The notes under the pieces: model-generated
What the model was told of the DNA's origin: nothing
What the model saw: the letters and a program-made list of their open reading frames with translations, nothing else
The model's database searches: none
Part shown: piece after piece, positions 673-33,102 of the stretch
Layout of the letters: each line of letters begins with the position of its first letter
Position numbering within the stretch: the stretch's first letter is position 1
Position numbers and translations under genes: made by a program
Source: Mycobacterium sp.
Lineage (GTDB): Bacteria; Actinomycetota; Actinomycetes; Mycobacteriales; Mycobacteriaceae
Length of the DNA: 43,959 nucleotides
Direction: 5' to 3'
NCBI GenBank assembly: GCA_025965975.1
Contig: JAOPVX010000083.1
Span: 1-43,959 of the forward strand

Positions 673-684
673 GTCAGCACTTAC
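673..684. promoter_or_regulatory. Upstream degenerate copy of the island operator (GTCAGCACTTAC)
   Basis: The site matches the consensus GTAAGTACTTAC at 10 of 12 positions. It lies 52 bp upstream of the perfect copy at 736-747, so the BVMO promoter may carry two regulator sites. Confidence 0.45.
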
Positions 685-723
685 TTTCACCATTGTTGCG
701 CACTGAGTCGCCGTCCGGCAGTA

Positions 724-753
724 TTGACGGTAGGTGTAAGTACTTACTATCGC
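724..753 (+). promoter_or_regulatory. BVMO promoter with perfect operator GTAAGTACTTAC (736-747)
   Basis: A -35-like TTGACG at 724-729 is followed by the perfect 12-bp palindrome GTAAGTACTTAC at 736-747. A weak -10 candidate, TATCGC, is at 748-753 (18-bp spacer). The motif is the best match to the consensus repeated throughout the island. Its place between the -35 and -10 elements predicts repression when bound. A ribosome-binding sequence, AGGTGAAG, follows at 757-764 just before the start codon. Confidence 0.65.
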
Positions 754-766
754 GATAGGTGAAGCT

Positions 767-2731
767 ATGACTGAGGACCGCGCTACCGATGTGAGGCCCG
801 AAGTCCATGTCGACGCCGCTCTCCGTTGGAAACTCGCGCGAGCACTGGAAGGTGCCAACGCTGCTGCGCTTGTCGCGACACTCGCCCACCTGACGGCAGA
901 CCGCCGCTGGCTTGAGGCACCGTACACGTTGGATCGCGAGAGCGTGCTGCGTGACGACCCCACCGGAGGGCTAGCTCCAGAGCGCGTGAGCGAAGTCCGC
1001 GCCGCCGCTGCGCAAATGCTCATCGAACGGCGAGAAAATGGCCAGGATTGGTTGGGACGCCATGAGCACCTGGATCCGGGCATGTTCACCGACATCATGA
1101 GCGCGTGCGTCGCCGAGCCTGTTCCGGCTGAGTATGAGCCAATGGTTCGCGAAGAGATCGGCCTGGCTGCGCGAGCGGTTAATTGGCGGTTGACATCGCA
1201 GCCGAGCACGCCAAGTCCCTTCCATGTCCTGATTGTCGGGGCAGGAATGTCAGGACTGTGCGCCGCGATACAGCTGAGCCGGCTTGGCGTGCCCTACACC
1301 ATCCTCGAGAAGAATCCTTGCGTCGGCGGAACCTGGTTCGAGAACTCCTACCCCGGCTGCCGCGTGGACGTCCCGAATCATTTCTATTCGTTTTCGTTTG
1401 CACCGAATCCTGACTGGTCGAACCACTTCTCCGAAAGGGACGAGCTCTTTTCCTACTTCACCGCCTGTGCGACCGAATACGACGTGTTACGGCACACATG
1501 TTTCGACCACGAGGTCGTCGCGGCACGGTTCGACGCCCATCGGCAACGGTGGATTGTCGACGCATCAACCCCTGACGGGGCAACATCGCGCTTCGAGTCG
1601 AACGTTCTGATCACCGCGGTCGGGCAGCTCAACCGGCCGCTCATGCCGGAACTACAGGGGTTGGCCGATTTTGACGGTCCGGTGTTTCACTCAGCGACGT
1701 GGCGGCACGACGTCGAACTGGCCGGAAAGTCCGTCGCCGTCGTCGGCACCGGTGCGAGCGCCATGCAGTTCGCCCCAGCCGTGGCGAGCCTGGCCGACAA
1801 GACCACCATCTTTCAACGATCACCGCAGTGGACCGTGCCGAACCCGCTTTATCACCGCAAAGTGTCCGACGAAACCAAGTGGCTGCTGGCGCATGTGCCC
1901 GCATATGCCGGCTGGTACCGATTCGCGCTTCTGTGGAAGTTGTGTGACGGCCTGTGGCCGGCGCTGCAGGTGGACCCCGAATGGTCTGGGAACGGTCAAT
2001 CAATCAACGCAGTAAATGAACGCGTCCGCGTGCGTCTGACCACGTACATCGAGCGGCAACTGTCCGGCCGACCGGATCTCATCGCAAAGGCACTTCCTCC
2101 ATACCCCCCGTACAGCAAGCGGCTACTCGTTGACAACGCCTGGTACGAGATGCTCAAACGGCCAAACGTCTCGTTGGTTACCGACTCGATTTCGCATGTA
2201 ACCACCGACGCGATCGTCACCGAAGATGGAACGCACCATCCGGTGGACGCGATCATCTGTGGCACAGGGTTCGCGGCCACCAAAGTCCTCTGGCCCATCG
2301 AGATTGTTGGCAAGTCCGGCGAGAAGCTGGACGATGTGTGGAATGGCGACGATGCTCGCGCATACCTCGGGATCGCCATGCCCGACTTTCCGAATCTGTT
2401 CTTTCTCTATGGTCCGAACACGAATCTCGGCCACGGCGGCAGCATCATTTTCCACGCCGAATGCCAAGCCAGGTACATCGCTCAATGCATTCGCGAGCTG
2501 CTCGAAGGTGGCCACGGCGCAATGGAATGCCGTAGCGATGTATTCGCCGACTATCAGAATCGCCTCGATACTGCGCTCAACGGCATGATCTGGTCTCAGG
2601 TCGAGGTCGGAAGCTGGTACCGCAACAGCGGACGCCGGGTGGTAGCCAACAGCCCGTGGCGCCTAGTGGACTACTGGAACATGACCCGGGAGCTCAGTGT
2701 CGCGGATTGGACATTCGAGGCACCACGATGA
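767..2731 (+). CDS. Type I Baeyer-Villiger monooxygenase (HAPMO-like, with N-terminal extension)
   Basis: A 654-residue flavoprotein that should insert oxygen next to a ketone, using FAD and NADPH, to give an ester or lactone. The first FAD-binding GxGxxG is at residues 158-163 (GAGMSG). The Baeyer-Villiger fingerprint FxGxxxHxxxW is at 302-312 (FDGPVFHSATW). The second dinucleotide motif, GTGASA, is at 327-332. The extra ~145 residues at the N-terminus and the overall length resemble 4-hydroxyacetophenone monooxygenase-type enzymes (about 640 residues) rather than cyclohexanone monooxygenase (about 540). The start has an AGGTGAAG sequence upstream. The stop overlaps the cupin start (ATGA), and an esterase follows, giving a ketone-to-ester-to-alcohol/acid module. 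The last 59 codons also occur as a partial copy at 6613-6789. Substrate unknown. Confidence 0.93.
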   Translation: MTEDRATDVRPEVHVDAALRWKLARALEGANAAALVATLAHLTADRRWLEAPYTLDRESVLRDDPTGGLAPERVSEVRAAAAQMLIERRENGQDWLGRHEHLDPGMFTDIMSACVAEPVPAEYEPMVREEIGLAARAVNWRLTSQPSTPSPFHVLIVGAGMSGLCAAIQLSRLGVPYTILEKNPCVGGTWFENSYPGCRVDVPNHFYSFSFAPNPDWSNHFSERDELFSYFTACATEYDVLRHTCFDHEVVAARFDAHRQRWIVDASTPDGATSRFESNVLITAVGQLNRPLMPELQGLADFDGPVFHSATWRHDVELAGKSVAVVGTGASAMQFAPAVASLADKTTIFQRSPQWTVPNPLYHRKVSDETKWLLAHVPAYAGWYRFALLWKLCDGLWPALQVDPEWSGNGQSINAVNERVRVRLTTYIERQLSGRPDLIAKALPPYPPYSKRLLVDNAWYEMLKRPNVSLVTDSISHVTTDAIVTEDGTHHPVDAIICGTGFAATKVLWPIEIVGKSGEKLDDVWNGDDARAYLGIAMPDFPNLFFLYGPNTNLGHGGSIIFHAECQARYIAQCIRELLEGGHGAMECRSDVFADYQNRLDTALNGMIWSQVEVGSWYRNSGRRVVANSPWRLVDYWNMTRELSVADWTFEAPR

Positions 2732-3288
2732 ATCCAGGTATCCGTCGGGTTGTAACCGGTCACGACGTCAACGGCGAAACCATCATTGCAAGCGACGAGG
2801 TGATTACAGGCGACACGTCCTGGGTCCGCCCGGGAGATGTGTTTCATCGCCTATGGGGCTGGGACGCCCCGCCAACGCTTCCCGACGGGGGCAGCCAACC
2901 CGCGATAGTCGACTTCTACCCTCCGGACGGTGGAGCCAGATTCGTCGTCATCACTCTTAGCCCCGACTCAACGGAAACCGACCCGCCCCGTGTTGCGTTC
3001 TCAGCGCTCGTCGCAGAGTTCGCCAGGCTCCTCCCGGGGGCTGCGCAGTACGTTGACCGCGCTGCTCCGCGATTTCACCGCACCCCCACGGTCGATCTCG
3101 TCGTGGTGCTATCCGGTCAGGTGACAGTCGAACTGGATAGCGGCGACCGAGCGACGTTGTCCGCAGGCGACACCCTTGTTCAGAACGGCACGTCGCACGC
3201 GTGGATCAACGTCGGTCCAGAGTCCGCGCAGATGGGCCTCTTCATCACAGGTGTCTCGCACGCCGACATTCCGTCCACACGTCGCTAG
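2728..3288 (+). CDS. Cupin-domain protein
   Basis: 186 residues. The start ATG at 2728 overlaps the BVMO stop as ATGA, so an in-frame ATG further upstream at 2656 is unlikely. The C-terminal half has the two cupin motifs in degenerate form. Motif 1 lies around FHRTPTVDLVVVLSGQVTVE, and motif 2 around GDTLVQNGTSHAWIN. A histidine in each motif could bind metal, but the usual HxH pair is not complete. Cupins of this type are small beta-barrel proteins acting as dioxygenases, isomerases or ligand sensors. Translational coupling to the BVMO and the esterase suggests a role in the same step, for example handling the oxygenated product. The function is inferred from position only. Confidence 0.8.
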   Translation: MNPGIRRVVTGHDVNGETIIASDEVITGDTSWVRPGDVFHRLWGWDAPPTLPDGGSQPAIVDFYPPDGGARFVVITLSPDSTETDPPRVAFSALVAEFARLLPGAAQYVDRAAPRFHRTPTVDLVVVLSGQVTVELDSGDRATLSAGDTLVQNGTSHAWINVGPESAQMGLFITGVSHADIPSTRR

Positions 3289-3307
3289 ACATCTTGGAGA
3301 TGGACAA

Positions 3308-4225
3308 ATGCCCTTGCACCCCGATGCCGCCAACCTTCTTAACCGCCTCTCCGCCGCGGGGATTCGCGGCGTCGAGGAACTCCCCCTCGATCGCGCACGC
3401 CGGGTTATTGAGGGACTCCGACAATTGGCCGGCGACGGACCCGGACCTGACGATGTGATAGTGCACGACGAGTTTGTGTCACACCCAGGGCCGATGGTTC
3501 GGACATATCGCCCCACCATGGGCGCCGAAGTCCCCATGCTGGTGTGGTTCCACGGTGGCGGCTGGGCGCTCGGCAGTGTTGACGTCGACGATGTCGCGTG
3601 TCGCTACCTTGCAGTCCAGGGTCAGGTTGCGGTCCTAAACGTGGACTACCGTCTCGCACCCGAGAATCCCTTCCCCGCAGCATTGAACGACGGTCGCCGC
3701 GTGCTGACCTGGGCACGCGACAACGCGACTCGCTGGGGCGCCGATGCGACCCGTGTCGCGATCGGAGGGCAAAGCGCGGGAGGAAACCTGGCGACCGCCG
3801 TCAGTTTGTCGTGCGCAATCGACGGAGCTCTTGCGCCGTGTTTTCAGCTGCTGGTCAGTCCGGCGCTCGACTCGCGGTGCTCGACTGATTCCTACAAGCG
3901 CTTCGGCGACGGCTATTACCTGACGAAGGCCACGATGGAGTGGGCCTGGTCAACCTACGCCCCTTCGGATCTGGGTAACCCACTCGTCTCACCCCTCTGC
4001 GCCGAGCAGGTAGCCGACCTGCCCCAAACAATGATCGTGAGTGCTGAGTTCGATCCCCTGCGTGACGAGGCTAGTGCGTTCGCTCATCGAATCGTGTCCG
4101 GCGGCGGCCAGGTGGAGGTTCGCATGTATCCCGGAATGATTCACGGCTTCTTCAGCATGCCAGGCACTTTCGCGGCGGCGCGGGAAGCCATCGCCGCTGC
4201 AGCTACCGCGTTGCGGCAGTTATGA
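3308..4225 (+). CDS. HSL-family alpha/beta-hydrolase (esterase/lactonase)
   Basis: 305 residues. The oxyanion-hole motif HGGG is at 82-85. The nucleophile Ser156 is in GGQSAGGN, where the family usually has GDSAGG. The other triad members are Asp249 (in SAEFDPLRDE) and His279 (in GMIHGFF). This is a hormone-sensitive-lipase-type cytoplasmic esterase, expected to hydrolyse the ester or lactone made by the BVMO two genes upstream. An in-frame start at 3176 exists, but ATG 3308 is preferred because it follows the cupin stop with GGAG at 3297-3300 and gives the family's normal N-terminus (MPLHPDAANLL). It aligns residue-for-residue with the second esterase of the island (16899-17822), with catalytic residues at identical positions. 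Its last 90 codons are repeated at 6798-7071. Confidence 0.93.
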   Translation: MPLHPDAANLLNRLSAAGIRGVEELPLDRARRVIEGLRQLAGDGPGPDDVIVHDEFVSHPGPMVRTYRPTMGAEVPMLVWFHGGGWALGSVDVDDVACRYLAVQGQVAVLNVDYRLAPENPFPAALNDGRRVLTWARDNATRWGADATRVAIGGQSAGGNLATAVSLSCAIDGALAPCFQLLVSPALDSRCSTDSYKRFGDGYYLTKATMEWAWSTYAPSDLGNPLVSPLCAEQVADLPQTMIVSAEFDPLRDEASAFAHRIVSGGGQVEVRMYPGMIHGFFSMPGTFAAAREAIAAAATALRQL

Positions 4226-7298: not shown

Positions 7299-7351
7299 TT
7301 GACTTTATATTAGTTGTAAGTGCTTACTTTATTCAAGAATTCGGCTAGATT
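7299..7351 (+). promoter_or_regulatory. Promoter and operator GTAAGTGCTTAC (7316-7327) of the molybdopterin oxidoreductase gene
   Basis: The operator has one mismatch to the island consensus and is embedded in AT-rich DNA. A TTGACT at 7299-7304 may be a -35 element, although its spacing to a good -10 is poor. A TAGATT at 7346-7351 ends 7 nt before the ATG at 7359, as in leaderless actinobacterial promoters; the operator would then cover the -35 region. No convincing ribosome-binding site precedes the ATG. Confidence 0.6.
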
Positions 7352-7358
7352 AGAGACC

Positions 7359-9560
7359 ATGACAGACGTTCCCCGTTCTGGCGACACGCCGTCGTCGGAC
7401 GCTCGGCACGCCGACCCAGCGCAACGCCGGGAGGTGGCCTCGTACTGTCGCATCTGCGAGTCGCTGTGCGGGATCGTGGCGACAGTCGAGGACAACCGCA
7501 TCGTGGACATCCGTGGAGACGGCGACCATCCTGTCTCACGCGGATATCTCTGCAGCAAGGGTAAGTCGATGACCCGGGTGATCGAGGATCCCGATCGGGT
7601 GACCACGCCGTTAAAGCGGACCGGAGGCTCCGGAGAGTTCGCTCCGACAGACTGGAATCAGGCGTTGGGGGATGTCGCGGAGCGCTTAACCCGGATCCGC
7701 AACGAATACGGTCCGAACGCCATCGCGATGTACTTGGGCAATCCGGTTGCCTTCAGCCTCGGCGCGATGTTCTGGGCGAAAGGCATGATAGACGCCATCG
7801 GGTCACCACACGTCTACTCCGTCGGGCCGCAAGACACCTTCGGACGACAAGCGGCGTCGCACTTCCTCTACGATTCGCCGGCATTATTTCCCATTCCCGA
7901 CATCCCTCGCACCGATTTTTTCCTCTGCGTTGGCGCGAACCCACTTATATCGCATGGTTCAGTGTTGACCTTGCCGCGTATCAAAGACGAGATGCAGGGC
8001 GTTGTCACACGAGGTGGGCGAGTAGTGATCGTGGATCCAATCAAGACCATGACGGCCCGCGCTTTCGAGCACGTCGCGGTGAGGCCAGGAACTGACGCCT
8101 GGCTGTTAGCCGCGATGTTGCAGGTCATCTTCAGCGAGAATCTGCACGACGCCGAGCGACTAGAACAGACGGCGCGTGGTTCCGAAGAACTCGCCGCCGT
8201 CGTTGCGAACTGCACGCCAGCAGTCGCAGCCCTGGTAACGGGTGTGTCAGCGGAGACAATTGTCGACCTCGCAACAGGTTTCGCTACCGCGTCCAGCGCG
8301 TGCGCCTATGCACGCGTAGGCGTGAACCGAAACCCATGGGCCACGGTCACCTGTTTTCTGCTCGACGCGCTCAACATCGTCACCGGCAACTACGACCGGG
8401 CCGGGGGAATCGTCTTTGGCGACGCGCCCATCGACTTCGCGGAGCTGACGTCCAAGTTCGGAATGAGTTCATTCGGTAAGCACCGAACCCGCGTGGGCGG
8501 TCTGGGCGATCTGAACGGCCTGTTGCCCTGGGTCCTGTCCGAGGAGATGACTCAACCCGGCCGCGACCGTGTCCGCGCACTCGTGGTTGTCGCAGGGAAC
8601 CCAGTGCTGTCTGCGCCCGACGGGGCTGCGCTCGAACGCGCATTGACACAGTCAGATCTCGTCGTCTCACTCGACTTCTACGTGAATGAGACGAATCGAC
8701 ACGCCGACTACGTCCTGCCGGTCTCAGCATTCCTTGAACGAGAGGACTTTCCGGGAAGCTTCCTCGGTCACATGCCGAAGCCGTGGCTGCAACTGACACC
8801 GGCCATCATCGACCCTCCTCAAGGCGTCCGCGAAGATTGGGAAGTGCTGGACGAGATCGTTGCGCGCATGGGATTGGGCGGACCGTTCAGTCAGCGATCA
8901 GTGCGTCTCGTTGCGGCGGGCCTGCGCAAGCTCGGCGTCGTGATCACTCCCACGATGTTGCTCAGAGCGCTTCTCCGGATCGGTCGGTCAGGATGGACGA
9001 TCAAGAAGCTTCGCCGGTATCCGCATGGGGTTCAGGACCGGTTGCACGTCCGGGTTGGAGACGCTCGAAAGAAGGTTCAACACCCCAACGGGCTGGTCAA
9101 CCTTGCGGCCAGCCCCGTGTTGGCCGAAATCTCTCGGTTATCCCATGAGCGACTCGATGTCCCCGATGGTGTACTGCAACTAGTCGGCAGGCGTGACGCC
9201 CTCAGCATCAATTCGTGGTTCCACAATGTTCGACGCGTCCGCGTCGTCCGCGAGCCAACTCTGTGGCTAAACCCCGCTGATGCCGCGCGTTTCGACATAT
9301 CGTCAGAGGGTCGTGTAGCAGTGTCAGGTCCGGCGGGCCGGATCGAGGTGGTGGCCGAGATCAGTGACCTCGTTCCCCCCGGGGTGGTCAGCTACCCCCA
9401 TGGCTGGGGGCACCGCGGGGGATGGAAGACCGCCAATTCGTTCGGCGGCCAGAACATCAACCTTCTGGCCTCATCGCGGATTGAGGATAAAGACCCGCTC
9501 TCCGGCGCGTCCCACCTCGACGGGATCCTCGTGACTATCGCGCGCGCCGGCACCGACTGA
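7359..9560 (+). CDS. Molybdopterin-dependent oxidoreductase (formate dehydrogenase/DMSO reductase superfamily)
   Basis: 733 residues. The N-terminus has the 4Fe-4S motif Cys30-x2-Cys33-x3-Cys37-x27-Cys65. It is followed by the molybdopterin guanine dinucleotide-binding fold and a C-terminal dinucleotide-binding domain (LWLNPADAARFDI...GRVAVSG). The ATG at 7359 is chosen over an upstream in-frame GTG (7320) that lies inside the operator. No Tat signal is visible, so the enzyme is probably cytoplasmic. There is no companion electron-transfer subunit beside it. I cannot assign the molybdenum ligand: there is no obvious Cys near the segment around residue 153 (YSVGPQDTFG). In a catabolic island it could hydroxylate with water-derived oxygen or oxidise an aldehyde. 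The crotonase gene follows after 5 bp. Confidence 0.88.
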   Translation: MTDVPRSGDTPSSDARHADPAQRREVASYCRICESLCGIVATVEDNRIVDIRGDGDHPVSRGYLCSKGKSMTRVIEDPDRVTTPLKRTGGSGEFAPTDWNQALGDVAERLTRIRNEYGPNAIAMYLGNPVAFSLGAMFWAKGMIDAIGSPHVYSVGPQDTFGRQAASHFLYDSPALFPIPDIPRTDFFLCVGANPLISHGSVLTLPRIKDEMQGVVTRGGRVVIVDPIKTMTARAFEHVAVRPGTDAWLLAAMLQVIFSENLHDAERLEQTARGSEELAAVVANCTPAVAALVTGVSAETIVDLATGFATASSACAYARVGVNRNPWATVTCFLLDALNIVTGNYDRAGGIVFGDAPIDFAELTSKFGMSSFGKHRTRVGGLGDLNGLLPWVLSEEMTQPGRDRVRALVVVAGNPVLSAPDGAALERALTQSDLVVSLDFYVNETNRHADYVLPVSAFLEREDFPGSFLGHMPKPWLQLTPAIIDPPQGVREDWEVLDEIVARMGLGGPFSQRSVRLVAAGLRKLGVVITPTMLLRALLRIGRSGWTIKKLRRYPHGVQDRLHVRVGDARKKVQHPNGLVNLAASPVLAEISRLSHERLDVPDGVLQLVGRRDALSINSWFHNVRRVRVVREPTLWLNPADAARFDISSEGRVAVSGPAGRIEVVAEISDLVPPGVVSYPHGWGHRGGWKTANSFGGQNINLLASSRIEDKDPLSGASHLDGILVTIARAGTD

Positions 9561-10459: not shown

Positions 10460-10471
10460 GTAAGTGCCTAC
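10460..10471. promoter_or_regulatory. Operator-like site GTAAGTGCCTAC
   Basis: Two mismatches to the island consensus. It lies 113 bp upstream of the better promoter-embedded copy at 10584 and about 50 bp downstream of the crotonase stop. It could be an auxiliary site for the membrane-protein promoter. Confidence 0.4.
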
Positions 10472-10576: not shown

Positions 10577-10606
10577 TTGACAAGCAAGCACTTACTATCT
10601 TAAGAT
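10577..10606 (+). promoter_or_regulatory. Promoter TTGACA-18-TAAGAT with operator GCAAGCACTTAC in the spacer
   Basis: A consensus -35 (TTGACA, 10577-10582) and a -10 (TAAGAT, 10601-10606) are separated by 18 bp. The spacer contains the island operator (10584-10595, two mismatches). This is one of the clearest arrangements in the window and implies that the regulator blocks RNA polymerase. It drives the membrane-protein gene. Confidence 0.65.
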
Positions 10607-15876: not shown

Positions 15877-15886
15877 AAATTCCTCC

Positions 15887-22742: not shown

Positions 22743-22766
22743 ATTGTAAGCGCTTACAATTATCAT
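22743..22766 (+). promoter_or_regulatory. TetR promoter with perfect 18-bp palindrome (22743-22760)
   Basis: ATTGTAAGCGCTTACAAT is a perfect 18-bp inverted repeat containing the core GTAAGCGCTTAC (22746-22757). It is followed directly by TATCAT (22761-22766), a good -10 three bases after the core. It is the most symmetrical copy of the motif and lies just upstream of the regulator gene, as expected for autorepression. No clear -35 is present. Confidence 0.75.
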
Positions 22767-24089: not shown

Positions 24090-25640
24090 TTAGATCGTCC
24101 TCCCGCGTCCTTGCCAATATGCGTCGCGAAGTCGGCGCTTGAAGATCTTGCCCGAATCCTCCCGCGGGAGCTCTGCGCGAAACTCGATGACCTTGGGTAC
24201 TTTGAAATCGGCAATGTGTTGATGGAGAAAGGCTTTGACGTCATCTGGCCCGGCTGAACTTCCAGGCGTCAGCTGAATCACAGCCGCCAAAACCTCGCCC
24301 AGACGGTCATCGGGAATGCCGAACACCGCACAGTCGGCCACTTCCGGCATTCCGACCAGTGCAGATTCGATCTCCGCCGGATAGACATTTGTGCCCCCGA
24401 AAATGACGAGGTCGACCTTGCGATCGCAGACAAACAGGAAGCCGTCCTGGTCCACGTAGCCCACGTCCCCGGAGGGCACCAAGGAGTCCACTTGATCGGC
24501 AGTCACCGCGCCGCCTTGATAGGTGAACTCGGATATGGCGTGGAGTCTGGAATAGATGTCGCCGACGTCTCCAGCGGGGACCTCGTTCCCGTCAGGATCA
24601 AGAATCTTGACCGTGGCGCCGTCGACCGGGCGCCCGACCGTGCCCGGGTGCGCGAGCCATTCCTCGCTGGAGCAGAACGTCACGGCGCCGGTCTCGGTGG
24701 ATCCGTAGAATTCGTAGATCACCGGTCCCCACCACTGGATCATCCGACGCTTGACATCCGGAGGGCACGGTGCTGCCGTGTGTACTACGTGCACCAGCGT
24801 GCTCAGGTCGTATCGAAGACGTGTCTCCGCAGGCAAATTCAACAGTTGCACGAACATCGTCGGAACCAATTGGACCGCGGTTATCTCGTGACGATCGATT
24901 AGCCGAAGGAGGTCCTCGGCGTCGAAACGTGACTGCAGCACTGCGGTGGCCCCGGTCTGCAACGCGAACATTGCGGTGGCGTTGGGGGCGCTGTGATACA
25001 TCGGAGCCGTGATGATCGTCCTGCTGCCCTCGGTCAACCCCAGTGTCTGCCGAGCGACGCTGGCGAACGCGGCCCGCTGCTCGGGGGTAAGTGCTTGCCT
25101 TCGAACTCCCTTGGGACGTCCCGTGGTTCCAGACGTGTAGATCAGAGTGGTCGGCGCGTCCTTGGCCGGTCCGTCCCACGGTTCGTGCGCGCCAATCCAG
25201 TCGAGCCAACGAACGTCGCCCGTGGATGCACAACGGCGGTCGTCCACGACGCCGTAAGCCCGTCCAATGTGCTCGGGGGTGTCCACGACGATCACCTGGA
25301 CCGAGGCCGGTATCGCGTCGCGGATCGGGCCGACGAGGTCGGAATGAACGACCAACACGGACGCGCCACTGTCCTTCAGGATGTACTCGACCTCGGCGCC
25401 CTTGAAATGCCAATTGATGGGCACCGTGACCGCACCCAAAAGGCCGGCGCCAATCGTGAGTTCCAGGATCGGGACATCGTTGCGCATGAGGAATGCGACA
25501 GCGTCTCCACCGCCCACGCCCATCGACGCGAATCCGCTCGCTGCTCTTGCAGCCGTCGTGAGAATCTGGCTTCGTGGGTAGAACGCGTCTCCCGATACGA
25601 ACCCCGGCTGGGGCGCACTTGACGTCATCGCAGTGCTCAT
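24090..25640 (-). CDS. Acyl-CoA ligase (AMP-forming), long-chain FadD-like
   Basis: 516 residues from ATG 25640. The P-loop is YTSGTTGRPKG, the acyl/adenine segment EFYGSTETG, the motif GDVGYVDQDG, the hinge CDRKVDLVIFGGTNVYP, and the catalytic lysine is in EDSGKIFKR. It differs from the two GNAWW-type ligases in the island and resembles bile-acid/steroid-side-chain or fatty-acid CoA ligases of actinobacteria. The start overlaps the stop of the preceding ligase (ATGA). It is the last gene of the operon beginning at 30488. Two ligases in one operon suggest activation of two different acids, for example the initial substrate and a later ring-opened acid. Confidence 0.93.
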   Translation of the reverse strand: MSTAMTSSAPQPGFVSGDAFYPRSQILTTAARAASGFASMGVGGGDAVAFLMRNDVPILELTIGAGLLGAVTVPINWHFKGAEVEYILKDSGASVLVVHSDLVGPIRDAIPASVQVIVVDTPEHIGRAYGVVDDRRCASTGDVRWLDWIGAHEPWDGPAKDAPTTLIYTSGTTGRPKGVRRQALTPEQRAAFASVARQTLGLTEGSRTIITAPMYHSAPNATAMFALQTGATAVLQSRFDAEDLLRLIDRHEITAVQLVPTMFVQLLNLPAETRLRYDLSTLVHVVHTAAPCPPDVKRRMIQWWGPVIYEFYGSTETGAVTFCSSEEWLAHPGTVGRPVDGATVKILDPDGNEVPAGDVGDIYSRLHAISEFTYQGGAVTADQVDSLVPSGDVGYVDQDGFLFVCDRKVDLVIFGGTNVYPAEIESALVGMPEVADCAVFGIPDDRLGEVLAAVIQLTPGSSAGPDDVKAFLHQHIADFKVPKVIEFRAELPREDSGKIFKRRLRDAYWQGRGRTI

Positions 25641-27250
25641 TTGAATGTCACGTTCCGCTCATAGTCGATTGGCCACGATTCGCGCAGTGGTTGTTTGACG
25701 ACCTTGCCGGTCGCATTCGTCGGCAATTGCTCGTGCCTCAACCACCACCGGCGCGGAACCTCGAAGTAGGCCAACCTCTCCGAGGCAAATGCTTCAAGGT
25801 CGTCCGGTGTTACTTCAACGCCATCACGTGGCACCACGACAGCAGCGACCACCTCACCGAACTCCTCATCCGGCAAGCCGATCACGGCCACCTCGGCGAC
25901 CGCCGGGTGCTCAACGAGTGCCGCTTCCACATTTGGGCAGGCGATATTCTCACCGCCGCGAATGATTACGTCCTTGATTCGGCCCTCGATGAATAAAAAG
26001 CCCTCGGCGTCGATGCGGCCGATGTCACCGGTATGAAGCCAACCCTCGGCGTTGACGACACACGGCTCTGAGCTCCCGAGATATTCCGTCATGTTTGTCG
26101 GCGAGCGAGCGATGATCTCCCCCTCGCCTGAGCTGTCGGGGTCTTCGATCTTCAACTCGACGACGGGGAAGGGTCGTCCCACAGTGCCCGGCCGGGCAGC
26201 CAGATCTTTGCCCGTCGCAACGGTGAGGGTTCCGCCTGCTTCCGTCATTCCGTAAATGGTCCCTGCGTTACGCCGAGCAGTCGGAAATGCGTGGCGCACT
26301 TGCTCGAACATATGGGGGCTCACATGAGTTCCGGACACCGTGACGGACCGCAGGGTTGAGGTGTCGCGGATTGCGAGGTCCGGGTGGTCGATGACCCGAC
26401 CAATCATGGTCGGCACTCCCCCCCACGACTCAATCTTCTCGGCCTCGATGAGACGAAGGATGGTCGCGGCGTCGAAGCGCCCAACGTGCAGAACAAGCTT
26501 GCCGCCGGTCAGCAGTGTCGCGAGAATCGACTGGATCCCACCCATGTGAAACAGAGGCACAGTCACCAGGGCGATCGCACCCTCATGGTCGGACGCAAGT
26601 TCGGGTGGGAGCCGCCTCGTTGCGACAAGGAAGTTCTGTTGGTTTGCGACCACCGATCGATGTGACAGTGTGGCCGCCTTCGGTGCGCCGGTCGTGCCGG
26701 ACGTGAACAGGATGACGGCGGGCAACTCCTCGTCGAACAAGCGGTCGTCGACAACTCCCAACCGAATCGTTTGTGTCGACGGTAGATCGAGCGGCAACCG
26801 CAACACCGGTCGCCCGGCTGGAATCATCGCCGCTCTGCGGTCGTCGGCGATGACCAAAACCGGCGACGCCACCGAGAGTGCATGATCGAGCTCTTTCCCA
26901 CTCCACCAGGCGTTTCCACTGACAACCGTTGCGCCTGACGCCAGCACCGCAAAGAAGGCAACAATCCAGTCCACGCTGTTTGCACCGAGTAACAACACTC
27001 GCTCGCCGACCCGGACACCGTGTTCGTCAACGAGCTTGTCCTTGGCTGTCTCAACGCAATCGAGGAACTCATCAAAGGTGAGCCGTCGTTCGTTCTCCAC
27101 CAAGTACTCGCGGTCGCCCCATCGTCGGGCATCGCTGAGGAATCCGCAGACGGTGCGCCAACGATTCGCGTACACCAGGTACGGCGGATGTGCGCCACCG
27201 CGCACGACGTGGGTGCCCCAGTGATCTGAGAGCGGGTGCGTTGAATTCAC
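25637..27250 (-). CDS. Acyl-CoA ligase (AMP-forming), GNAWW type
   Basis: 537 residues from a GTG at 27250 that overlaps the thiolase-like stop (GTGA). The P-loop is FTSGTTGAPKA, the A5-type motif IYGMTEAGG, the TGD motif WLHTGDIG, the hinge EGRIKDVIIRGGENI, and the catalytic lysine is in NATGKVVKQ. It is the paralog of the ligase at 18653-20260: LLLGANSVDWI and GNAWW are shared, as is the whole C-terminal half. It lies between the thiolase-like protein and the other ligase in the 30488-24090 operon. The substrate is unknown. The shared GNAWW segment replaces the usual small residues after the first core strand. Confidence 0.93.
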   Translation of the reverse strand: MNSTHPLSDHWGTHVVRGGAHPPYLVYANRWRTVCGFLSDARRWGDREYLVENERRLTFDEFLDCVETAKDKLVDEHGVRVGERVLLLGANSVDWIVAFFAVLASGATVVSGNAWWSGKELDHALSVASPVLVIADDRRAAMIPAGRPVLRLPLDLPSTQTIRLGVVDDRLFDEELPAVILFTSGTTGAPKAATLSHRSVVANQQNFLVATRRLPPELASDHEGAIALVTVPLFHMGGIQSILATLLTGGKLVLHVGRFDAATILRLIEAEKIESWGGVPTMIGRVIDHPDLAIRDTSTLRSVTVSGTHVSPHMFEQVRHAFPTARRNAGTIYGMTEAGGTLTVATGKDLAARPGTVGRPFPVVELKIEDPDSSGEGEIIARSPTNMTEYLGSSEPCVVNAEGWLHTGDIGRIDAEGFLFIEGRIKDVIIRGGENIACPNVEAALVEHPAVAEVAVIGLPDEEFGEVVAAVVVPRDGVEVTPDDLEAFASERLAYFEVPRRWWLRHEQLPTNATGKVVKQPLRESWPIDYERNVTFK

Positions 27251-28767
27251 GAAGCCTCCACGGCCACTGGATGCTCGCCGACGTCGAACGTGCCATCGCC
27301 GGCGATGTGGACGAGCCGTCCGCAGAACTCCTCGGCTGTCATCGCTCGAACGACCGGTTTGCTTGCACTCCAGACGATCACGCGACGACCATCGGGCGGT
27401 TCAGCCACGGCGACTGCTCTTGATGGACGATCGCGTTGGCTCGCTAGCACGGTGTAGCCGACGATTGACGCGACTCCGGCGTAGTCCTGTACCAGCGGGC
27501 GGGGAGGGCACGCGGAGAGCGCAGCTTCCGATACGTCGATCGATTGGAACTTGTCTCGTGGGGGTGCTGCTGACCACACCGAGAATGCTTGCTTTGTGAG
27601 CACACCGGACACCGACGAGATCAACCCCGTCTTGCCCGTTTGACGTAGGGCTAGGGCGAGTTGAGCAGTTGCGTGAAGGACGTAATTGTTGAAAGGACCA
27701 CCAGCATAACGCATTCCACCTGTGATCGACGGAGCAGGAAGTGCAGACGGTAGGCCAAGGGCCTTTGCATGCAATTGGAGTGCGATGGGAAAGCAAGAAT
27801 AGAGCTCCAGCAGGCCGAGGGAGTCCGCAGACACTCGGGCGTGCCCAAGTGCAGCTGATGCGGCTTGTTCGGCACCTGGCGCTTCTCCGATGGCGGAGCG
27901 CTGTGACAGCGGAATCATCGCATTGGAGATACCGCTGGACACCGGGTAGATCCAGCGTGACGGCTCGATCTGGAGCTCCCGGGCCTTCTCGACTGAGGTG
28001 AAGATCAACGCAGATGCCTGATCGACGCTCCAACGGCTGACATGCTCGCTGCGGTAAGGGAACGCAAGCATCGGGTTGCTTGCTGAATCGGAGTTCACGG
28101 ATTCGGCAGTGATCGGGGAGCGCTTCCACGCGTGGGGGTTTCGGGCCCCGATCTCGCTGAGTTCGCTGTACAGCGCGGCCGTCGCAGCCACGTCGTCACT
28201 GATCGAACAGCCGCGGGCCGCGCGGGCCGCGGCCGCGATGATCGCGTAGTAGCCAACGGCGTCTTCGCCGAGGCCAGCCGCGATCTCAGCGGCCAACATG
28301 ATCGGCGAGTCCGCTCGCCAGGTCACGTCTGCCTCGGTGTCCTGCTGCTCGTCGTGTAGTTCGTGACCCCGCTTGGTCGCACAGAGAAGGCGAAAGCCGG
28401 CTTCGCCTCCTACGACGAGGCAGACATCCGCCGACCCGTCAATGATGTTGCGGCATCCGTCCGCTATGAGCGACTCCTGCAGGACACCGATGCGAGCGAG
28501 CACCGAAGTGACGTTGGGTGAACCGAATGACGCCGTAATCGCACGCCCTGGATCGCGATAGCGCCAACGCCCCTTCGGTACGTACACACGGTCGATTTGG
28601 CTCAGCACCGTCGGGGCCCCGGCATCGCGCGCCGCCGCAACACACGCTCGGCGCATGAGCGACAGTGGTTCGTCTGCGTCTAGAGGTTCGGGTTCGCGTT
28701 GGCTTTGCAGACCGACCCCGATCATGACCGGCGTCCGGGGATGTAACTTCTCTTGCTGTCCGGTCAT
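27247..28767 (-). CDS. Thiolase-like protein (SCP2-thiolase-like type 1, TLP1)
   Basis: 506 residues from ATG 28767, overlapping the MaoC stop (ATGA). The thiolase-fold pattern is clear: VVGGEAGF, ELYSCFPIALQLHAKALGLP and GGMRYAGGPFNNYVLHA. The C-terminal ~90 residues form the additional domain of mycobacterial type-1 thiolase-like proteins. The segment around residues 85-110 (ITASFGSPNVTSVLARIGVL) has no cysteine at the position of the acyl-accepting nucleophile, and the C-terminal CxG motif is replaced by SVSGVLTKQ. A normal thiolytic mechanism is therefore unlikely. It may bind CoA thioesters and do another step, such as hydrolysis or retro-Claisen cleavage with a different nucleophile. 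Its neighbours (MaoC pair, ligases) tie it to beta-oxidation-like reactions. Confidence 0.85.
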   Translation of the reverse strand: MTGQQEKLHPRTPVMIGVGLQSQREPEPLDADEPLSLMRRACVAAARDAGAPTVLSQIDRVYVPKGRWRYRDPGRAITASFGSPNVTSVLARIGVLQESLIADGCRNIIDGSADVCLVVGGEAGFRLLCATKRGHELHDEQQDTEADVTWRADSPIMLAAEIAAGLGEDAVGYYAIIAAAARAARGCSISDDVAATAALYSELSEIGARNPHAWKRSPITAESVNSDSASNPMLAFPYRSEHVSRWSVDQASALIFTSVEKARELQIEPSRWIYPVSSGISNAMIPLSQRSAIGEAPGAEQAASAALGHARVSADSLGLLELYSCFPIALQLHAKALGLPSALPAPSITGGMRYAGGPFNNYVLHATAQLALALRQTGKTGLISSVSGVLTKQAFSVWSAAPPRDKFQSIDVSEAALSACPPRPLVQDYAGVASIVGYTVLASQRDRPSRAVAVAEPPDGRRVIVWSASKPVVRAMTAEEFCGRLVHIAGDGTFDVGEHPVAVEAS

Positions 28768-29234
28768 TCAACATCTCCTACTCGCGTCGGAAACACGACC
28801 AACGCAGACGCGACTGTGGTCTTGCCGACGCGATCGTTCTCCAGCCACAAGTCGAGATCCACTATCCGACGGCCTCCTGAGTCGATTCGCTTTGCGCGAA
28901 CTTGTCCACCCGAACGCACGCTGTCGCCAAACGCGTTCATTTGGCGCATCCGGAAATCGAAGCGCTCGATCCATCCCGATGCCCCGATCCAATCCGACGC
29001 GACCTTGAACAGGATGGCGCTGGTCCAACCCGTGTTCAGGAATATCGAAGGGTGACCGCTTTCAAGCGCGAAGCCGGGGTCATGGTGAACCCGGTTCCAG
29101 TCCTGGGAACCGCTGACCTGCAGGACGACCGTGTTCCAATCGACGGTCACTTCGACGCCCGCAAGTCGTTGGCCCACCTCCACATCGGCCCAGTCTGGCC
29201 GCGCAAGCTTCTTCGCATCCACGCCGCTATGCAT
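28764..29234 (-). CDS. MaoC-like hydratase subunit (catalytic type)
   Basis: 156 residues from ATG 29234, which shares one base with the upstream gene's stop (TGATG). It is a single hotdog domain with the hydratase-2 motif SQDWNRVHHDPGFA. The Asp and His of the D-x-N-x-x-H motif are both present, followed by the helix containing HPSIFLNTG. This form adds water to trans-2-enoyl-CoA in the R sense or acts on branched/steroidal enoyl-CoAs. The adjacent gene encodes a second MaoC-fold protein with a changed motif. In actinobacteria such pairs (for example ChsH1 with ChsH2) form heteromers in which one subunit is catalytic, and this one fits that role. Confidence 0.88.
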   Translation of the reverse strand: MHSGVDAKKLARPDWADVEVGQRLAGVEVTVDWNTVVLQVSGSQDWNRVHHDPGFALESGHPSIFLNTGWTSAILFKVASDWIGASGWIERFDFRMRQMNAFGDSVRSGGQVRAKRIDSGGRRIVDLDLWLENDRVGKTTVASALVVFPTRVGDVE

Positions 29235-29776
29235 CAGAAACTCTCAGCGGCGGCGATCTGCCGCTTTGATCGGTGCACCAGCACGGAGTTGCGGCACGTT
29301 GCAACGACCTCGTCACGTTGATTGGACAGACGCAATTCAGTGACAATGCACACCGCTTGTGGGTCAATTTTGATCGGCTTGAAGAAGATGTCGGTGATCC
29401 GCGTCTCCGACGAGAGTCGGTCCCCTACTCGTACCGGTTGCCGATACTCCCATGACACTTCAAGATTGATCCCGCGATCACCGGGGGTGGGTACTCCGTA
29501 TGTCCAGCCCGGGCGACGAACACCCGTCTTCGACTTCCGGGGCCATGGCCCTCCGCCGGCGAAGTACGGCAGAAGCGGCCCGGGTGCGATTACCGCCGCG
29601 TACGGACCCCGGCGCGCAATTTCGGGATCCAGATACAGCGGGTTGTCGTCATGGATCATGTTGCAGTACCGGCGTATCGGATCGTACTCGACCGGGTATC
29701 TTCCGTCGCTACGGTCGACAACCGAGCCGATCCAAGCCGATTTCACTACCTCGATGTCGTAATCGTCTTGCGTCAT
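29234..29776 (-). CDS. MaoC N-terminal-type (FAS1-like) dehydratase partner
   Basis: 180 residues from ATG 29776. Hotdog fold with RRYCNMIHDDNPLYLDPEIA followed by GPYAAVIAPGPLLPYF. The active-site equivalent reads DDNPLY, with Tyr where the catalytic His of hydratase 2 would be, so this is probably the substrate-binding partner of the MaoC protein encoded next (28764-29234). Similar proteins make up half of two-domain hydratases and of the ChsH1/ChsH2-type heteromers, sometimes with a DUF35 domain, which is absent here. It follows the SDR at 29793 by 16 bp and belongs to the operon starting at 30488. Confidence 0.87.
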   Translation of the reverse strand: MTQDDYDIEVVKSAWIGSVVDRSDGRYPVEYDPIRRYCNMIHDDNPLYLDPEIARRGPYAAVIAPGPLLPYFAGGGPWPRKSKTGVRRPGWTYGVPTPGDRGINLEVSWEYRQPVRVGDRLSSETRITDIFFKPIKIDPQAVCIVTELRLSNQRDEVVATCRNSVLVHRSKRQIAAAESF

Positions 29777-29792
29777 TCGCCGCCTTCTTTCG

Positions 29793-30488
29793 TCAACTTG
29801 CGCCTGTGGCAAGCGTCGACCGAACCTCTTTGGTGAAGCTTCCAAAGACGCTGCTCACGCCACCATCTACGGGGATCGTGGACCCGGTGATGAAGGAAGC
29901 ATCTGCGCCAGCGAGGAATACGACGAGTTTCGCGACCTCGATGGCTGTGCCAATGCGTCCGAGCGGTGCCAGCTCGGCCGAAGCGCACTTCATCACGCCG
30001 AGGACGCCGTGCTTGCCTGCGGTGTAGGCCGAGCCTCGGGCGGCGCCAAGCAGTCCAGGGCCTGATGACGTGATGATGACGGAACCACCCCCAGATGCCA
30101 CAATCTGACGGCCCGCACACTGGAGCCCGAGAAACGTGCCACGAAGGTTTACGTCGAGCACTGAATCCCATTGTTCGGGTGTTGTTTCGAAAATGGAGCC
30201 GGTGATGTGGACACCGGCGTTGAGGTGCGCGATATGTAGCGCACCGAATCTCTCAACAACGACCGCTACCATCGCCTCGTTCTCAGCAACGTCGGCAACA
30301 ATGACTGCCAAGGTGGTTGCTTCGCCTCCTGACTGGATGATGGTTTCAGCAACCCGGGCAGCGGCTAACTCGTCGAGATCCGCACAGCACACCTTGGCGC
30401 CAGCTTGAGCGAGCTCGCTCGCCGTCGCTGCACCAATTCCTGATCCAGCCCCGGTCACAAGCGCTACCTGGCCGGTCAAATCCGTCAT
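29793..30488 (-). CDS. Short-chain dehydrogenase/reductase with internal deletion
   Basis: 231 residues from ATG 30488. TGAGSGIG is at 12-19, an acidic pair follows the second strand (CCADLDE), NAG is at 90-92, and the catalytic Tyr155 and Lys159 are in YTAGK. After residue 174 (SAELA) the sequence goes straight to PLGRIGTAIE. Compared with its paralog at 14654-15469, about 37 residues are missing in frame: the strand carrying the NAVCPGTIDTP motif and the substrate-binding loop and helices. The rest, to the IPVDGG end, is intact. The cofactor site remains, but the substrate pocket is incomplete, so activity is doubtful. It is the first gene of the ligase/thiolase-like/MaoC operon, with the operator 134 bp upstream. 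Confidence 0.85.
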   Translation of the reverse strand: MTDLTGQVALVTGAGSGIGAATASELAQAGAKVCCADLDELAAARVAETIIQSGGEATTLAVIVADVAENEAMVAVVVERFGALHIAHLNAGVHITGSIFETTPEQWDSVLDVNLRGTFLGLQCAGRQIVASGGGSVIITSSGPGLLGAARGSAYTAGKHGVLGVMKCASAELAPLGRIGTAIEVAKLVVFLAGADASFITGSTIPVDGGVSSVFGSFTKEVRSTLATGAS

Positions 30489-30621: not shown

Positions 30622-30633
30622 GTAAGTACTAAC
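30622..30633 (-). promoter_or_regulatory. Operator GTAAGTACTAAC upstream of the SDR/MaoC/ligase operon
   Basis: One mismatch to the consensus. It lies 134 bp upstream of the SDR start, leaving an untranslated leader of about 120 nt. On the minus strand the site is followed directly by TATTGT, a possible -10. No clear -35 is seen. It controls six genes down to 24090. Confidence 0.62.
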
Positions 30634-30758: not shown

Positions 30759-31868
30759 TCAGGCAACAGCATTGCTACGGTCGATCACGAGCGAAGCGAT
30801 CCGATCTAGATGCTCGTCGGCACCGCCGAGAAGCGCCGCGTCTGTGACTGCACGTTTGAGGTAGAGGTGGGCTGGATGCTCCCAGGTGAACCCGATGCCT
30901 CCATGAATCTGAATCGCGCTGTTCGCGACGGATAAAAAGGCTTGCGAGCATGTTGCCTTCGCGATACTCGCAACAAGCCGTGGATTGTCCGTGCCCGTCT
31001 GAAGTGAACCGACCGCGTGATACGCCGCCGATCGAGCATGTTCCACGAGCACGAGCATGTCGGCGCACCTGTGCTTGATGGCCTGGAACGATCCGATTCG
31101 CCGACCAAATTGCGAACGCGTCCCCGCGTATTCAACCGACATGTCGAGAAGTCTTTTGGCGCCGCCAACCTGCTCCGCCGCCAAGAGCGCTGTGGCTACG
31201 CAGAGTGCTCGTTCGACCGCCTGGTAGGCATCAGCTCCCGTCGCAAGTAAGCGAGTCTCAACACCGTCGAACGAGACCCTCGCCTGGCGGCGGGTTTGAT
31301 CGAGAGTTGGAAGCCATACTCGATCGCCGCCGTCGACGAGGAACAGGCCAAAGCCTTCGGAACGGTTCGCGGCGACGACTAGCCAATCGGCGTCACCATC
31401 AACGACTTGGGGCATTTCACCTGTCAGTTGTCCGCGGGCTTCCACAATGCGGATCGATTGCGCATCGAGTTCGGTGCCGCTGCACGGGAGGGCGACGGCG
31501 GCCGTGCTTTGACCGCGGATCAGCGATGGGAGCACTTCGTCGCCGCCAAGAGCCGAAAGCAGCGGAATAGCAAGGTCGACTGTCCCAAATACAGGTCCGG
31601 GCAGCAGGCTTCGTCCGAATTCTTCGCATGCGATCGCCTGTTCCACCAGCCCTGCGCCGGCTCCCCCCAGGTCTTCGGGGACGGCGAGTCCGAATACTCC
31701 AATCTCAGAACCAAGGCGTATCCAGGTAGCTCGGTCGAAACCGCTCGAAGTGTCCACGAGCTTTCGAACAATGCTTTCGGGCGTAGTGGTCGCGAGGAAT
31801 TTCCGGAGGGTTTCACGTAGCTCGTCCTGCTCAACGGTGGCCGCGTAGCCCGGTAGCGGCTCAGCCAC
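30759..31868 (-). CDS. Acyl-CoA dehydrogenase, probable non-catalytic subunit
   Basis: 369 residues from GTG 31868, which overlaps the stop of the preceding acyl-CoA dehydrogenase by 8 nt (GTGGCTGA). The N-terminal helical and central beta domains are recognisable (EDLGGAGAGLVEQ). The C-terminal domain has the FAD/dimer arginine segment TRSQFGRRIGSFQAIKHR and IHGGIGFTWEHPAHLYLKRA. Where catalytic subunits have TIEGGTSE, this protein reads ALLGGADE, so the catalytic Glu is replaced by Leu. This is the pattern of the actinobacterial alpha2-beta2 acyl-CoA dehydrogenases used for steroid side chains (FadE26/27, FadE28/29 type). It should pair with the product of 31861-33066. Confidence 0.9.
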   Translation of the reverse strand: MAEPLPGYAATVEQDELRETLRKFLATTTPESIVRKLVDTSSGFDRATWIRLGSEIGVFGLAVPEDLGGAGAGLVEQAIACEEFGRSLLPGPVFGTVDLAIPLLSALGGDEVLPSLIRGQSTAAVALPCSGTELDAQSIRIVEARGQLTGEMPQVVDGDADWLVVAANRSEGFGLFLVDGGDRVWLPTLDQTRRQARVSFDGVETRLLATGADAYQAVERALCVATALLAAEQVGGAKRLLDMSVEYAGTRSQFGRRIGSFQAIKHRCADMLVLVEHARSAAYHAVGSLQTGTDNPRLVASIAKATCSQAFLSVANSAIQIHGGIGFTWEHPAHLYLKRAVTDAALLGGADEHLDRIASLVIDRSNAVA

Positions 31869-33066
31869 GGGGTATCTCCTTCCACGGTTTTCCAGAGTCC
31901 GCACGCATATCTCCGGGTAACCCGAGGATGCGCTCACCGAGAATGTTTCGGAGCACCTCAGAGGTGCCTCCTTCGATGGTGTTGGCACGCGAGCGAAGGA
32001 ATGAGTGCTGGATGGCGACGCTGGCATCGCGCCTGAGCAACGAATCGATCGCGCCGTAGTCTTCGTGGAGAGTGGCCTCCGCTCCGAGCAGATCCATGCA
32101 GAATTCGTAGACGGCCTGATTTAGCTCGGCCGAGACCAGCTTCGAAATTGCACCCTCTGGGCCCGGCGAGCCGAGCTTTGAGGTCGCGCGCGCGCGTTGT
32201 CCGGTGATCCGCTGGACTTCAGCGCGAGTCCACAACCTAGCGAGCCGATCTCGTAGGACGGACGTGTGCTTGTCCGGTCTTTGTTGCCAGAGCAACATCG
32301 CATCAGCGATAGAGCCTGATCCGCGGACGGACGATCCGCCCCCGATCGCCGATCGCTCGTTCATGAGCGTCGTCATCGCAACTCGCCATCCGTCGCCGAT
32401 TGGCCCGAGTCGGTGGGTGTCCGGTATCCGTACGTCGGACAGAAAGACTTCGTTGAACTCGGAGTGACCGGTGATCTGTCGGAGCGGCCGAACATCGACG
32501 CCCGGAGCGTGCATGTCAAGGATGAAGTAGGTCAACCCTTGGTGCTTAGGCACATCAGGGTCGGTCCGGGCGAGCAACAGTGCGTAGCGAGCGACGTGAG
32601 CTCCGCTTGTCCACACCTTTTGGCCATTTACAACCCAGTCATCGGCAACGCGCACAGCCATGGTCGCGAGGCCCGCCAAGTCTGAGCCCGCCCCCGGCTC
32701 GCTGAAGAGCTGACACCAGATGTGTTCGGAACTGGCGAGGGGACGCAGCAATTCGCGTGCGAGCTCGGGGGGCGCGTGCTCCACGAGCGTGGGGGCCGCC
32801 ATTCCGTACCCGATGGGGTTCAGCGCAAATGGATGCTTGCCGCCGGCGTCGTTCAAGACCACATCGACAGATGCCTGAAGTCCGCGCGGAACGCCAAGAC
32901 CGCCAAGACCCTTAGGGAAATGAACCCACGTGAGCCCCGCGTCAAACCAGGCACCGAGAAAGTCCCGCCGGCCCATTGAGCGCGGATCGTGCCGGCCGAC
33001 CAATTCCAGTGCCTCACGTTCGACATACGCCGACGCCGTCTCGGCGTCGACGGTTGGTTGAACCAT
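31861..33066 (-). CDS. Acyl-CoA dehydrogenase, probable catalytic subunit
   Basis: 401 residues from ATG 33066. FAD-binding motifs are LFSEPGAGSDLAGL and VNGQKVWTSGAH. The C-terminus has ANTIEGGTSEVLRNILGERI, which keeps the Glu equivalent to Glu376 of medium-chain acyl-CoA dehydrogenase. With the adjoining subunit it should introduce a trans-2 double bond into an acyl-CoA. The start is 6 nt downstream of a TATCAT -10 element, so the transcript is probably leaderless, and no ribosome-binding site is visible. The operator lies in the promoter spacer. The ligases and MaoC proteins of the adjacent operon supply its substrate and use its product. Confidence 0.93.
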   Translation of the reverse strand: MVQPTVDAETASAYVEREALELVGRHDPRSMGRRDFLGAWFDAGLTWVHFPKGLGGLGVPRGLQASVDVVLNDAGGKHPFALNPIGYGMAAPTLVEHAPPELARELLRPLASSEHIWCQLFSEPGAGSDLAGLATMAVRVADDWVVNGQKVWTSGAHVARYALLLARTDPDVPKHQGLTYFILDMHAPGVDVRPLRQITGHSEFNEVFLSDVRIPDTHRLGPIGDGWRVAMTTLMNERSAIGGGSSVRGSGSIADAMLLWQQRPDKHTSVLRDRLARLWTRAEVQRITGQRARATSKLGSPGPEGAISKLVSAELNQAVYEFCMDLLGAEATLHEDYGAIDSLLRRDASVAIQHSFLRSRANTIEGGTSEVLRNILGERILGLPGDMRADSGKPWKEIPRG

Positions 33067-33072
33067 ACTGTG

Positions 33073-33102
33073 ATGATACGTGTAAGTACTCACTTCTTTC
33101 AA
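33073..33102 (-). promoter_or_regulatory. Leaderless promoter TTGAAA-18-TATCAT with operator (33082-33093) in the spacer
   Basis: On the minus strand TTGAAA (33102-33097) and TATCAT (33078-33073) are 18 bp apart. The spacer carries GTGAGTACTTAC, one mismatch from the consensus. TATCAT is followed by six bases and the ATG at 33066, so transcription should start at or next to the A of the start codon. It is the best-defined promoter in the window. Confidence 0.72.

Follow-up and report, generated by a model that had tools for sequence, protein, structure and literature searches.

Results

A palindrome recurs at the promoters of a catabolic gene cluster

The DNA analysed here is a whole contig of 43,959 bp (C284; hereafter the window) from a Mycobacterium sp. 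genome of 7.44 Mb in 449 contigs (G000). It carries a cluster of catabolic genes, called with a simple script rather than an established gene finder, and a 12-bp palindrome, represented by GTAAGTACTTAC, recurs between them. This palindrome forms an operator family that is concentrated on one gene island, occupies intergenic positions and is found again at orthologous promoters, in three species altogether, the other two being represented by the Mycobacterium genomes G046 and G289. It constitutes a new regulon of a known kind, a TetR-type operator network, and very likely serves as the operator of one or both of two candidate repressors, TetR-A and TetR-B, that would control import and catabolism by the island.

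Eleven copies upstream of gene starts had been listed in an earlier note on this DNA. All eleven are present letter for letter, and each is intergenic, with the start codon of a called gene at a distance of 15-212 bp. Two predicted operators precede a Baeyer-Villiger-type flavin monooxygenase (BVMO) gene (767..2731, + strand): the distal GTCAGCACTTAC (673..684; matrix score 21.0; 82 bp from 767) and the proximal GTAAGTACTTAC (736..747), which has TTGACG 12 bp upstream. Further downstream, GTAAGTGCTTAC (7316..7327) is located 31 bp from the start of a molybdopterin oxidoreductase gene (7359..9560, +), and GCAAGCACTTAC (10584..10595), with TTGACA 7 bp upstream, precedes 10684..11439 (+; scanned from 10615), whose product has no Pfam match and was judged by eye to be a hydrophobic, membrane-like protein. 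The predicted operator of a cytochrome P450 gene (12726..13895, -) is GTAAGTACACAC (13918..13929), 22 bp from the start at 13895. At the promoter of an esterase-like alpha/beta hydrolase gene (16899..17822, -), GTAAGTACTCAC (17939..17950) follows TTGACA by 10 bp and is accompanied by a weaker, secondary site, GTCAGTGCTCAC (18006..18017; score 13.0).

Similarly, GTGAGCGCTTAC (21195..21206) lies in the divergent promoter of a crotonase/enoyl-CoA hydratase gene (20253..21107, -) and an aldehyde dehydrogenase gene (21241..22719, +), and the high-scoring GTAAGCGCTTAC (22746..22757) is found 45 bp upstream of the gene for TetR-A, a candidate repressor of 232 amino acids (22803..23501, +). The operator GTAAGTACTAAC (30622..30633) is predicted for a run of six genes on the - strand, encoding a short-chain dehydrogenase (SDR; 29793..30488), a MaoC/FAS1-type dehydratase (29234..29776), a MaoC-like hydratase (28764..29234; below the Pfam cut-off), a thiolase-like protein (27247..28767; a weak TLP1 C-terminal domain match, below the cut-off) and two acyl-CoA ligases (25637..27250 and 24090..25640). 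Finally, GTAAGTACTCAC occurs a second time (33082..33093), between TTGAAA and TATCAT, ahead of two acyl-CoA dehydrogenase genes on the - strand (31861..33066 and 30759..31868, the latter a possible partner subunit), and is conserved there in three species. When each listed site was scored by a matrix built without it, ten of the eleven reached at least 18.2; GTAAGTGCCTAC (10460..10471) scored only 8.1 and is doubtful. The window thus holds ten strong operators.

Allowing up to three mismatches to GTAAGTACTTAC, we found 16 matches in the window, compared to a mean of 2.79 in 100 dinucleotide shuffles, none of which reached 16. Five of these matches were absent from the earlier list; one is the secondary site at 18006, and the other four (372, 21787, 25087 and 28578) fall inside called genes and probably reflect chance. 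The operator consensus spans approximately 16 bp and reads WW-GTRAG-YR-CTYAC-WW. The palindrome had been said to mark nearly every promoter of the island; most is the more accurate word. Of the 20 genes at 1-34 kb of the window that are preceded by 60 bp or more of free DNA, 12 have a site scoring 14 or more. Some of the remaining eight may be internal to operons.

Operator sites are clustered on the island and mostly intergenic

We searched whole genomes for the word GTAAGYRCTTAC within one mismatch. In the 7.44 Mb of G000 it occurs 22 times: 11 in the window (including the coding match at 25087), two on a second island-bearing contig, C447, and nine outside. The expectation of few sites elsewhere was examined with this word at one mismatch: 13 of the 22 fall on the window and the first 22.1 kb of C447, where 0.20 are expected. 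In G046, a two-contig genome found through its TetR, nine of 14 places lie in a 60-kb island (expected 0.15; borders set by synteny and sites), and ten of 14 in the full 120 kb retrieved. For G289, the island contigs hold eight of the 14 places (expected 0.14). Six complete genomes lacking TetR-A have two to seven places each, with at most two inside any 60 kb and closest pairs 7 and 9 kb apart. The proposal that the palindrome defines a regulon is supported by this genome-wide search and by recurrence in the two other species.

A 16-bp palindromic matrix trained only on the 11 listed sites was then run on the window, C447, the G046 island and three G289 contigs. At a score of 9, it returned 52 intergenic sites in 34 kb and seven coding sites in 151 kb, four of the seven in the window. 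The G046 island alone yielded 15 sites in 9.4 kb of intergenic and one in 50.8 kb of coding DNA; the G046 flanks fetched yielded two in 5.6 kb of intergenic and none in 52.4 kb of coding DNA. At a score of 14, about 175 kb yielded 43 sites, every one of them intergenic and 33 outside the training set. Among 30 palindromes made from the permuted half-site, the real one has 30 island matches (28 intergenic), whereas the best of the 29 controls has four.

Outside the islands, a conserved-target check covered five of nine places in G000, four of five in G046 and one of six in G289. Of the ten places checked, seven fall inside called genes, the three intergenic ones being C285:45714 and C34:4781 (G000) and 1114237 (G046), and no orthologous neighbours were shared between genomes at 45% identity. 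The first of the three (C285:45714-45725; L003:7715) reads GTGAGTACTTAC, scores 24.0 and is positioned 22 bp upstream of a short called open reading frame (ORF).

The island continues beyond the window and recurs in two other species

The earlier note described a 32-kb catabolic island. This island extends past the window onto C447, the first 20 kb of which are syntenic with the G046 island before a COX1 gene is reached. C447 contributes an MCE-type operon, a second BVMO, an SDR-nitroreductase, a P450 and TetR-B, together with four strong operators. Orthologues of the MCE run are present in C447 and G289; in G046, three of its genes were scanned and comprise one MlaE and two MlaD proteins, the others being named by position and size. 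A full MCE importer operon would comprise two MlaE permeases and six MlaD/Mce proteins in a row. All three species carry operators at the orthologous promoters of the BVMO, the crotonase/aldehyde dehydrogenase pair, the acyl-CoA dehydrogenase pair and the esterase. The same is true of the MaoC-thiolase-ligase operon, where the G000 site lies ahead of a preceding SDR gene. Operators also precede the MCE operon in G046 and G289.

The G+C content of the islands is 0.60-0.63, compared to 0.67-0.69 in the DNA flanking the G046 island and in the outer portions of C447 and of the G289 contig C439. From 33.5 to 44 kb the window has a G+C content of 0.628, the same as the island, and its right border is therefore not marked by composition. 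The contig ends of G289 point to an insertion between genes that have adjacent orthologues in G046. Base composition and this insertion pattern are consistent with horizontal acquisition of the island. A plasmid search with TetR-A and the thiolase-like protein returned only relatives of less than 60% identity.

The G046 island additionally carries a run resembling acyclic terpene utilisation (Atu) genes (L041:403-10312) behind an operator at L041:10415 (relative 90415), encoding AtuA, a biotin carboxylase, a carboxyltransferase, an acyl-CoA dehydrogenase, a hydratase, a luciferase-like monooxygenase and a sulfotransferase-like protein. A single ORF fuses the SDR and the nitroreductase in G046 and, judging by homology, in C447; in G289 they are two overlapping ORFs (L002:9024-10583, L040:13171-14709 and G289 C408 6704-8193). 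A short nitroreductase piece is also present in the window, at 14181-14654.

Some operators are placed next to promoter-like boxes

Eleven of 42 operators have an exact TTGAC 7-17 bp upstream, where 0.59 are expected. Three-species alignments of two promoters show conserved blocks that include the operator, one of them being the crotonase/aldehyde dehydrogenase promoter with the site at 21195. At the acyl-CoA dehydrogenase promoter, TTGA, the operator and a TATCAT, TACTAT or TATTAT box are arranged and spaced alike in each of the three species. The data do not support a fixed TANNNT box at the operator edge, which was found downstream at 19 of 55 and upstream at 16 of 55 sites.

Two related TetR proteins accompany the operator

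TetR-A belongs to the TetR/AcrR family, with a TetR_N domain (PF00440; E-value 1.7e-15) that scores 56.9 bits against a cut-off of 24, and, as expected of a TetR-type regulon, the palindrome recurs in promoters around its gene. In a sample of 396 genomes covering Mycobacterium in the broad sense, TetR-A (accepted at E 1e-38 or better) is present in three: G000, G046 (71% identity) and G289 (78%). Among 401 genomes of the family it is found in one, G000 itself. A TetR match in another genus member, G117 (C2:845019-845654), coincides with one on a Mycobacterium branderi plasmid (845022-845654). TetR-B, 43% identical to TetR-A, occurs in the same three of the 396 genomes, and the operator cluster is present in all three. 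G289 was first noticed through the frequent operator bunched on one contig, and its TetR-A was found afterwards. In all three species, the TetR-A gene lies directly downstream of the operator-bearing aldehyde dehydrogenase gene. The TetR at 22803, which the earlier note put forward for binding tests, is a good candidate for the binder in that it keeps company with the operator cluster in the same three genomes; its paralogue TetR-B is always present too, and either may be the protein that binds. These two were the regulator candidates recognised, the island ORFs having been scanned in part for other regulator families.

The recognition helix reads VAEALLFRNF in the three TetR-A proteins and in a TetR-B of G000, with small changes in the three other TetR-B proteins. 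A phylogenetic tree resolves TetR-A and TetR-B as well supported groups and joins them at moderate support (94/93), on long branches that the tool flagged as possibly false. More distantly, a search of genome contigs returned six TetRs of 30-34% identity, and 34 PDB sequences match TetR-A at E 0.001, none named KstR2 and many of them unnamed TetRs. In a mycobacterial TetR subfamily related to these proteins, with the helix V[ST]EYLLFRHF or a similar one, 13 of the 15 members examined have a different palindrome, AATAGTGnnCACTATT, upstream at a distance of 33-82 bp (L021, L023-L026, L028-L032, L035, L046 and L047); it is missing upstream of L033 and L036. Among the 21 related-TetR loci, the VGE-type group (L019, L020, L022, L027 and L045) and L034 have no AATAGTGnnCACTATT-like palindrome, and isolated matches to GTNAGNNCTNAC at one mismatch occur in six. 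One of these, GAAAGTACTTAC at L027, 379 bp upstream of the TetR gene, resembles the island operator, which may thus be shared with the VGE-type group. The occurrence of AATAGTGnnCACTATT with the V[ST]EYLLFRHF-type helix fits helix-operator co-evolution, which it does not prove.

Gene content points to a steroid-like or terpenoid substrate

The BVMO was assigned by Pfam, its first ~150 residues having no domain match, and its nearest PDB entries are a putative flavin-binding monooxygenase, phenylacetone monooxygenase and steroid monooxygenase. Of the two adjacent acyl-CoA dehydrogenases, 31861-33066 was compared with the PDB and is nearest to 4x28, which we take to be the steroid side-chain enzyme ChsE4-ChsE5; this pairing is as expected of side-chain degradation. 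The best NCBIfam model for the ligase at 25637-27250 is steroid-24-oyl-CoA synthetase, but at 465 bits it stays below the cut-off of 750. These homologies make a steroid-like or terpenoid substrate our best guess, without singling out one compound.

Other genes of the cluster on the + strand encode a cupin (2728..3288), an esterase-like alpha/beta hydrolase (3308..4225; scanned from 3302) and an enoyl-CoA hydratase family protein (9680..10411; scanned from 9566). On the - strand are three SDRs (11578..12414, 14654..15469 and 15887..16654), a SnoaL-like protein (15481..15933) and an acyl-CoA ligase (18653..20260). Near-copies of the BVMO 3' end (2555-2731) and of the esterase end (3952-4265) at 6613-6789 and 6798-7110 (91% and 93%) are apparently the remains of a second BVMO-esterase copy. 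Outside the regulon, two similar TetR genes (41380-42039 and 42997-43650, the latter with an MftR-type C-terminal domain) flank a 174-amino-acid ORF on the opposite strand.

Discussion

We propose that a dimer of TetR-A, TetR-B or both binds each operator and blocks RNA polymerase. At some promoters the operator is located between a -35-like and a -10-like box, and repression there would be steric. The pathway substrate, or a CoA-bound intermediate, would release the repressor and thereby induce jointly the predicted MCE importer, two BVMOs, P450s, esterases, dehydrogenases, CoA ligases, the acyl-CoA dehydrogenase pair, hydratases and the thiolase-like protein, whose products would import and degrade a steroid-like or terpenoid compound. 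We infer from sequence which protein binds, that it represses and does not activate, and what the ligand and the substrate are. A wider version of this model, to which we give somewhat less than even odds, is that the two paralogous repressors share one operator code and jointly run a rare, horizontally acquired island, which couples its own MCE importer to the degradation of steroid-like or triterpenoid compounds, distinct from cholesterol catabolism, G046 having added a terpene-utilisation operon.

Several observations weigh against the model of a TetR-A and/or TetR-B regulon. The two regulators cannot be separated by co-occurrence. An operator directly upstream of TetR-A is present in G000 only, none having been found there in G046 or G289, and no site was found before the G000 MCE operon (C447 1-1000). 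Of 78 island genes preceded by 60 bp or more of free DNA, 33 lack a strong site, and TTGAC is found on the opposite side of the operator in three of 42 cases. Nine of ten genomes tried for TetR-A, chosen by high operator counts or listed matches, do not have it. An extended-word scan over the genus genomes was noisy, with 15 matches in G289, only seven in G046 and up to 12 in genomes without TetR-A; G074, G355 and G190 reach 12, 11 and 10. Genome totals are not generally above those of the reversed pattern (22 vs 29 in G000, 14 vs 13 in G046 and 14 vs 22 in G289), and the evidence is therefore the clustering and not the total. Moreover, the score cut of 14, the TTGAC range of 7-17 bp and the island borders were chosen after inspection of the data, and two of the three G289 contigs, C37 and C439, were picked for the operator and then confirmed by gene content.

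Which of the two proteins reads the palindromes bears on the strongest alternative, namely that TetR-B does so alone and TetR-A controls something else or is a minor partner. TetR-B is present wherever TetR-A is, has nearly the same recognition helix and carries sites in its own neighbourhood (C447:12627 and G289 C37:6667). The high-scoring operator at 22746, 45 bp from TetR-A in G000, and the position that TetR-A has in each species, just downstream of the aldehyde dehydrogenase gene with its operator, argue against this division of labour, which we consider improbable. TetR-family proteins can also activate transcription, and an activator site would suit those copies that lie 60-250 bp from a start; against this stand the 11 of 42 operators downstream of a TTGAC box and the acyl-CoA dehydrogenase operator before a TAT-rich box in all three species, where a bound dimer would exclude polymerase. 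We regard activation as unlikely.

Control by KstR2 or another chromosomal sterol regulator, which would make the island an arm of the known sterol regulon, is slightly less likely still. KstR2 is a TetR repressor of clustered catabolic genes that binds the 14-bp palindrome AnCAAGnnCTTGnT, a motif of three promoter regions that is separated by 22-82 bp from five of six reported starts (PMC3068626). The statement that the island palindrome matches neither KstR nor KstR2 is right for the full KstR2 motif; the AAGnnCTT core of AnCAAGnnCTTGnT is shared, and the two differ at the next base outward, where the island word has GTAAG and KstR2 GCAAG (T for C; PMC3068626). Some island sites are hybrids, for example GCAAGCACTTAC at 10584; a KstR2-type sequence for comparison is GCAAGTGCTTGC. 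However, exact KstR2-type sites (RNCAAGYRCTTGNY) occur six times in G000, all on contigs other than C284 and C447. KstR2 is described as highly conserved (PMC3068626), whereas TetR-A is present in three of 396 genomes, and the operator cluster turned up in the three genomes with TetR-A and TetR-B but in none of six complete genomes without TetR-A. The ten strong operators of the window likewise contrast with the three KstR2 promoter regions of that account. A chance or base-composition artefact, which the AT-richness of the islands relative to the measured flanks could suggest (0.60-0.63 vs 0.66-0.69 G+C, except for the window's right side at 0.628), is ruled out by the shuffles, the control genomes and the permuted palindromes (at most four matches vs 30), with 52 of 59 sites at a score of 9 being intergenic in sequence of which less than a fifth is intergenic.

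Other described systems resemble the island regulon in part. Mce3R, also of TetR type, controls an MCE importer together with lipid-related genes, but is a fused double TetR of 406 amino acids with a non-palindromic operator (PMC11667970), unlike TetR-A, a single protein of 232 amino acids with one TetR_N stretch and palindromic sites. KstR3 of Mycolicibacterium neoaurum, a TetR repressor of a sterol side-chain operon, governs only a small operon (atf1, chsH4, chsE6); the main text of that article contains neither 'palindrom' nor 'inverted repeat' (PMC10398937). Acyclic terpene utilisation is called to mind by the AtuA, carboxylase, acyl-CoA dehydrogenase and hydratase genes behind the G046 operator; in contrast, G000 and G289 hold only AtuA relatives of 34-35% identity on other contigs, and these genes are not part of the shared core. 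The Rv0078 operator is a 21-bp repeat, and GTAAG appears there in primers and a probe, in the portion of that article consulted (PMC6016246). The available text on MCE operons (PMC1810536) contains nothing on this regulator. Eleven new TetR motifs, displayed as logos, have been reported in mycobacteria (PMC4482099), and one of them may match the island operator; neither GTAAGTACTTAC nor this regulon was found among the literature matches listed.

Given that the operator is concentrated on the island, it yields a candidate gene list for the pathway and ties the predicted MCE importer to defined catabolic enzymes. To our knowledge, the cargo of most MCE operons in these organisms is unknown, and the cargo of this system becomes testable by induction. 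The regulon also offers an example, within one genus, of related TetR subfamilies that differ in recognition helix as well as in operator.

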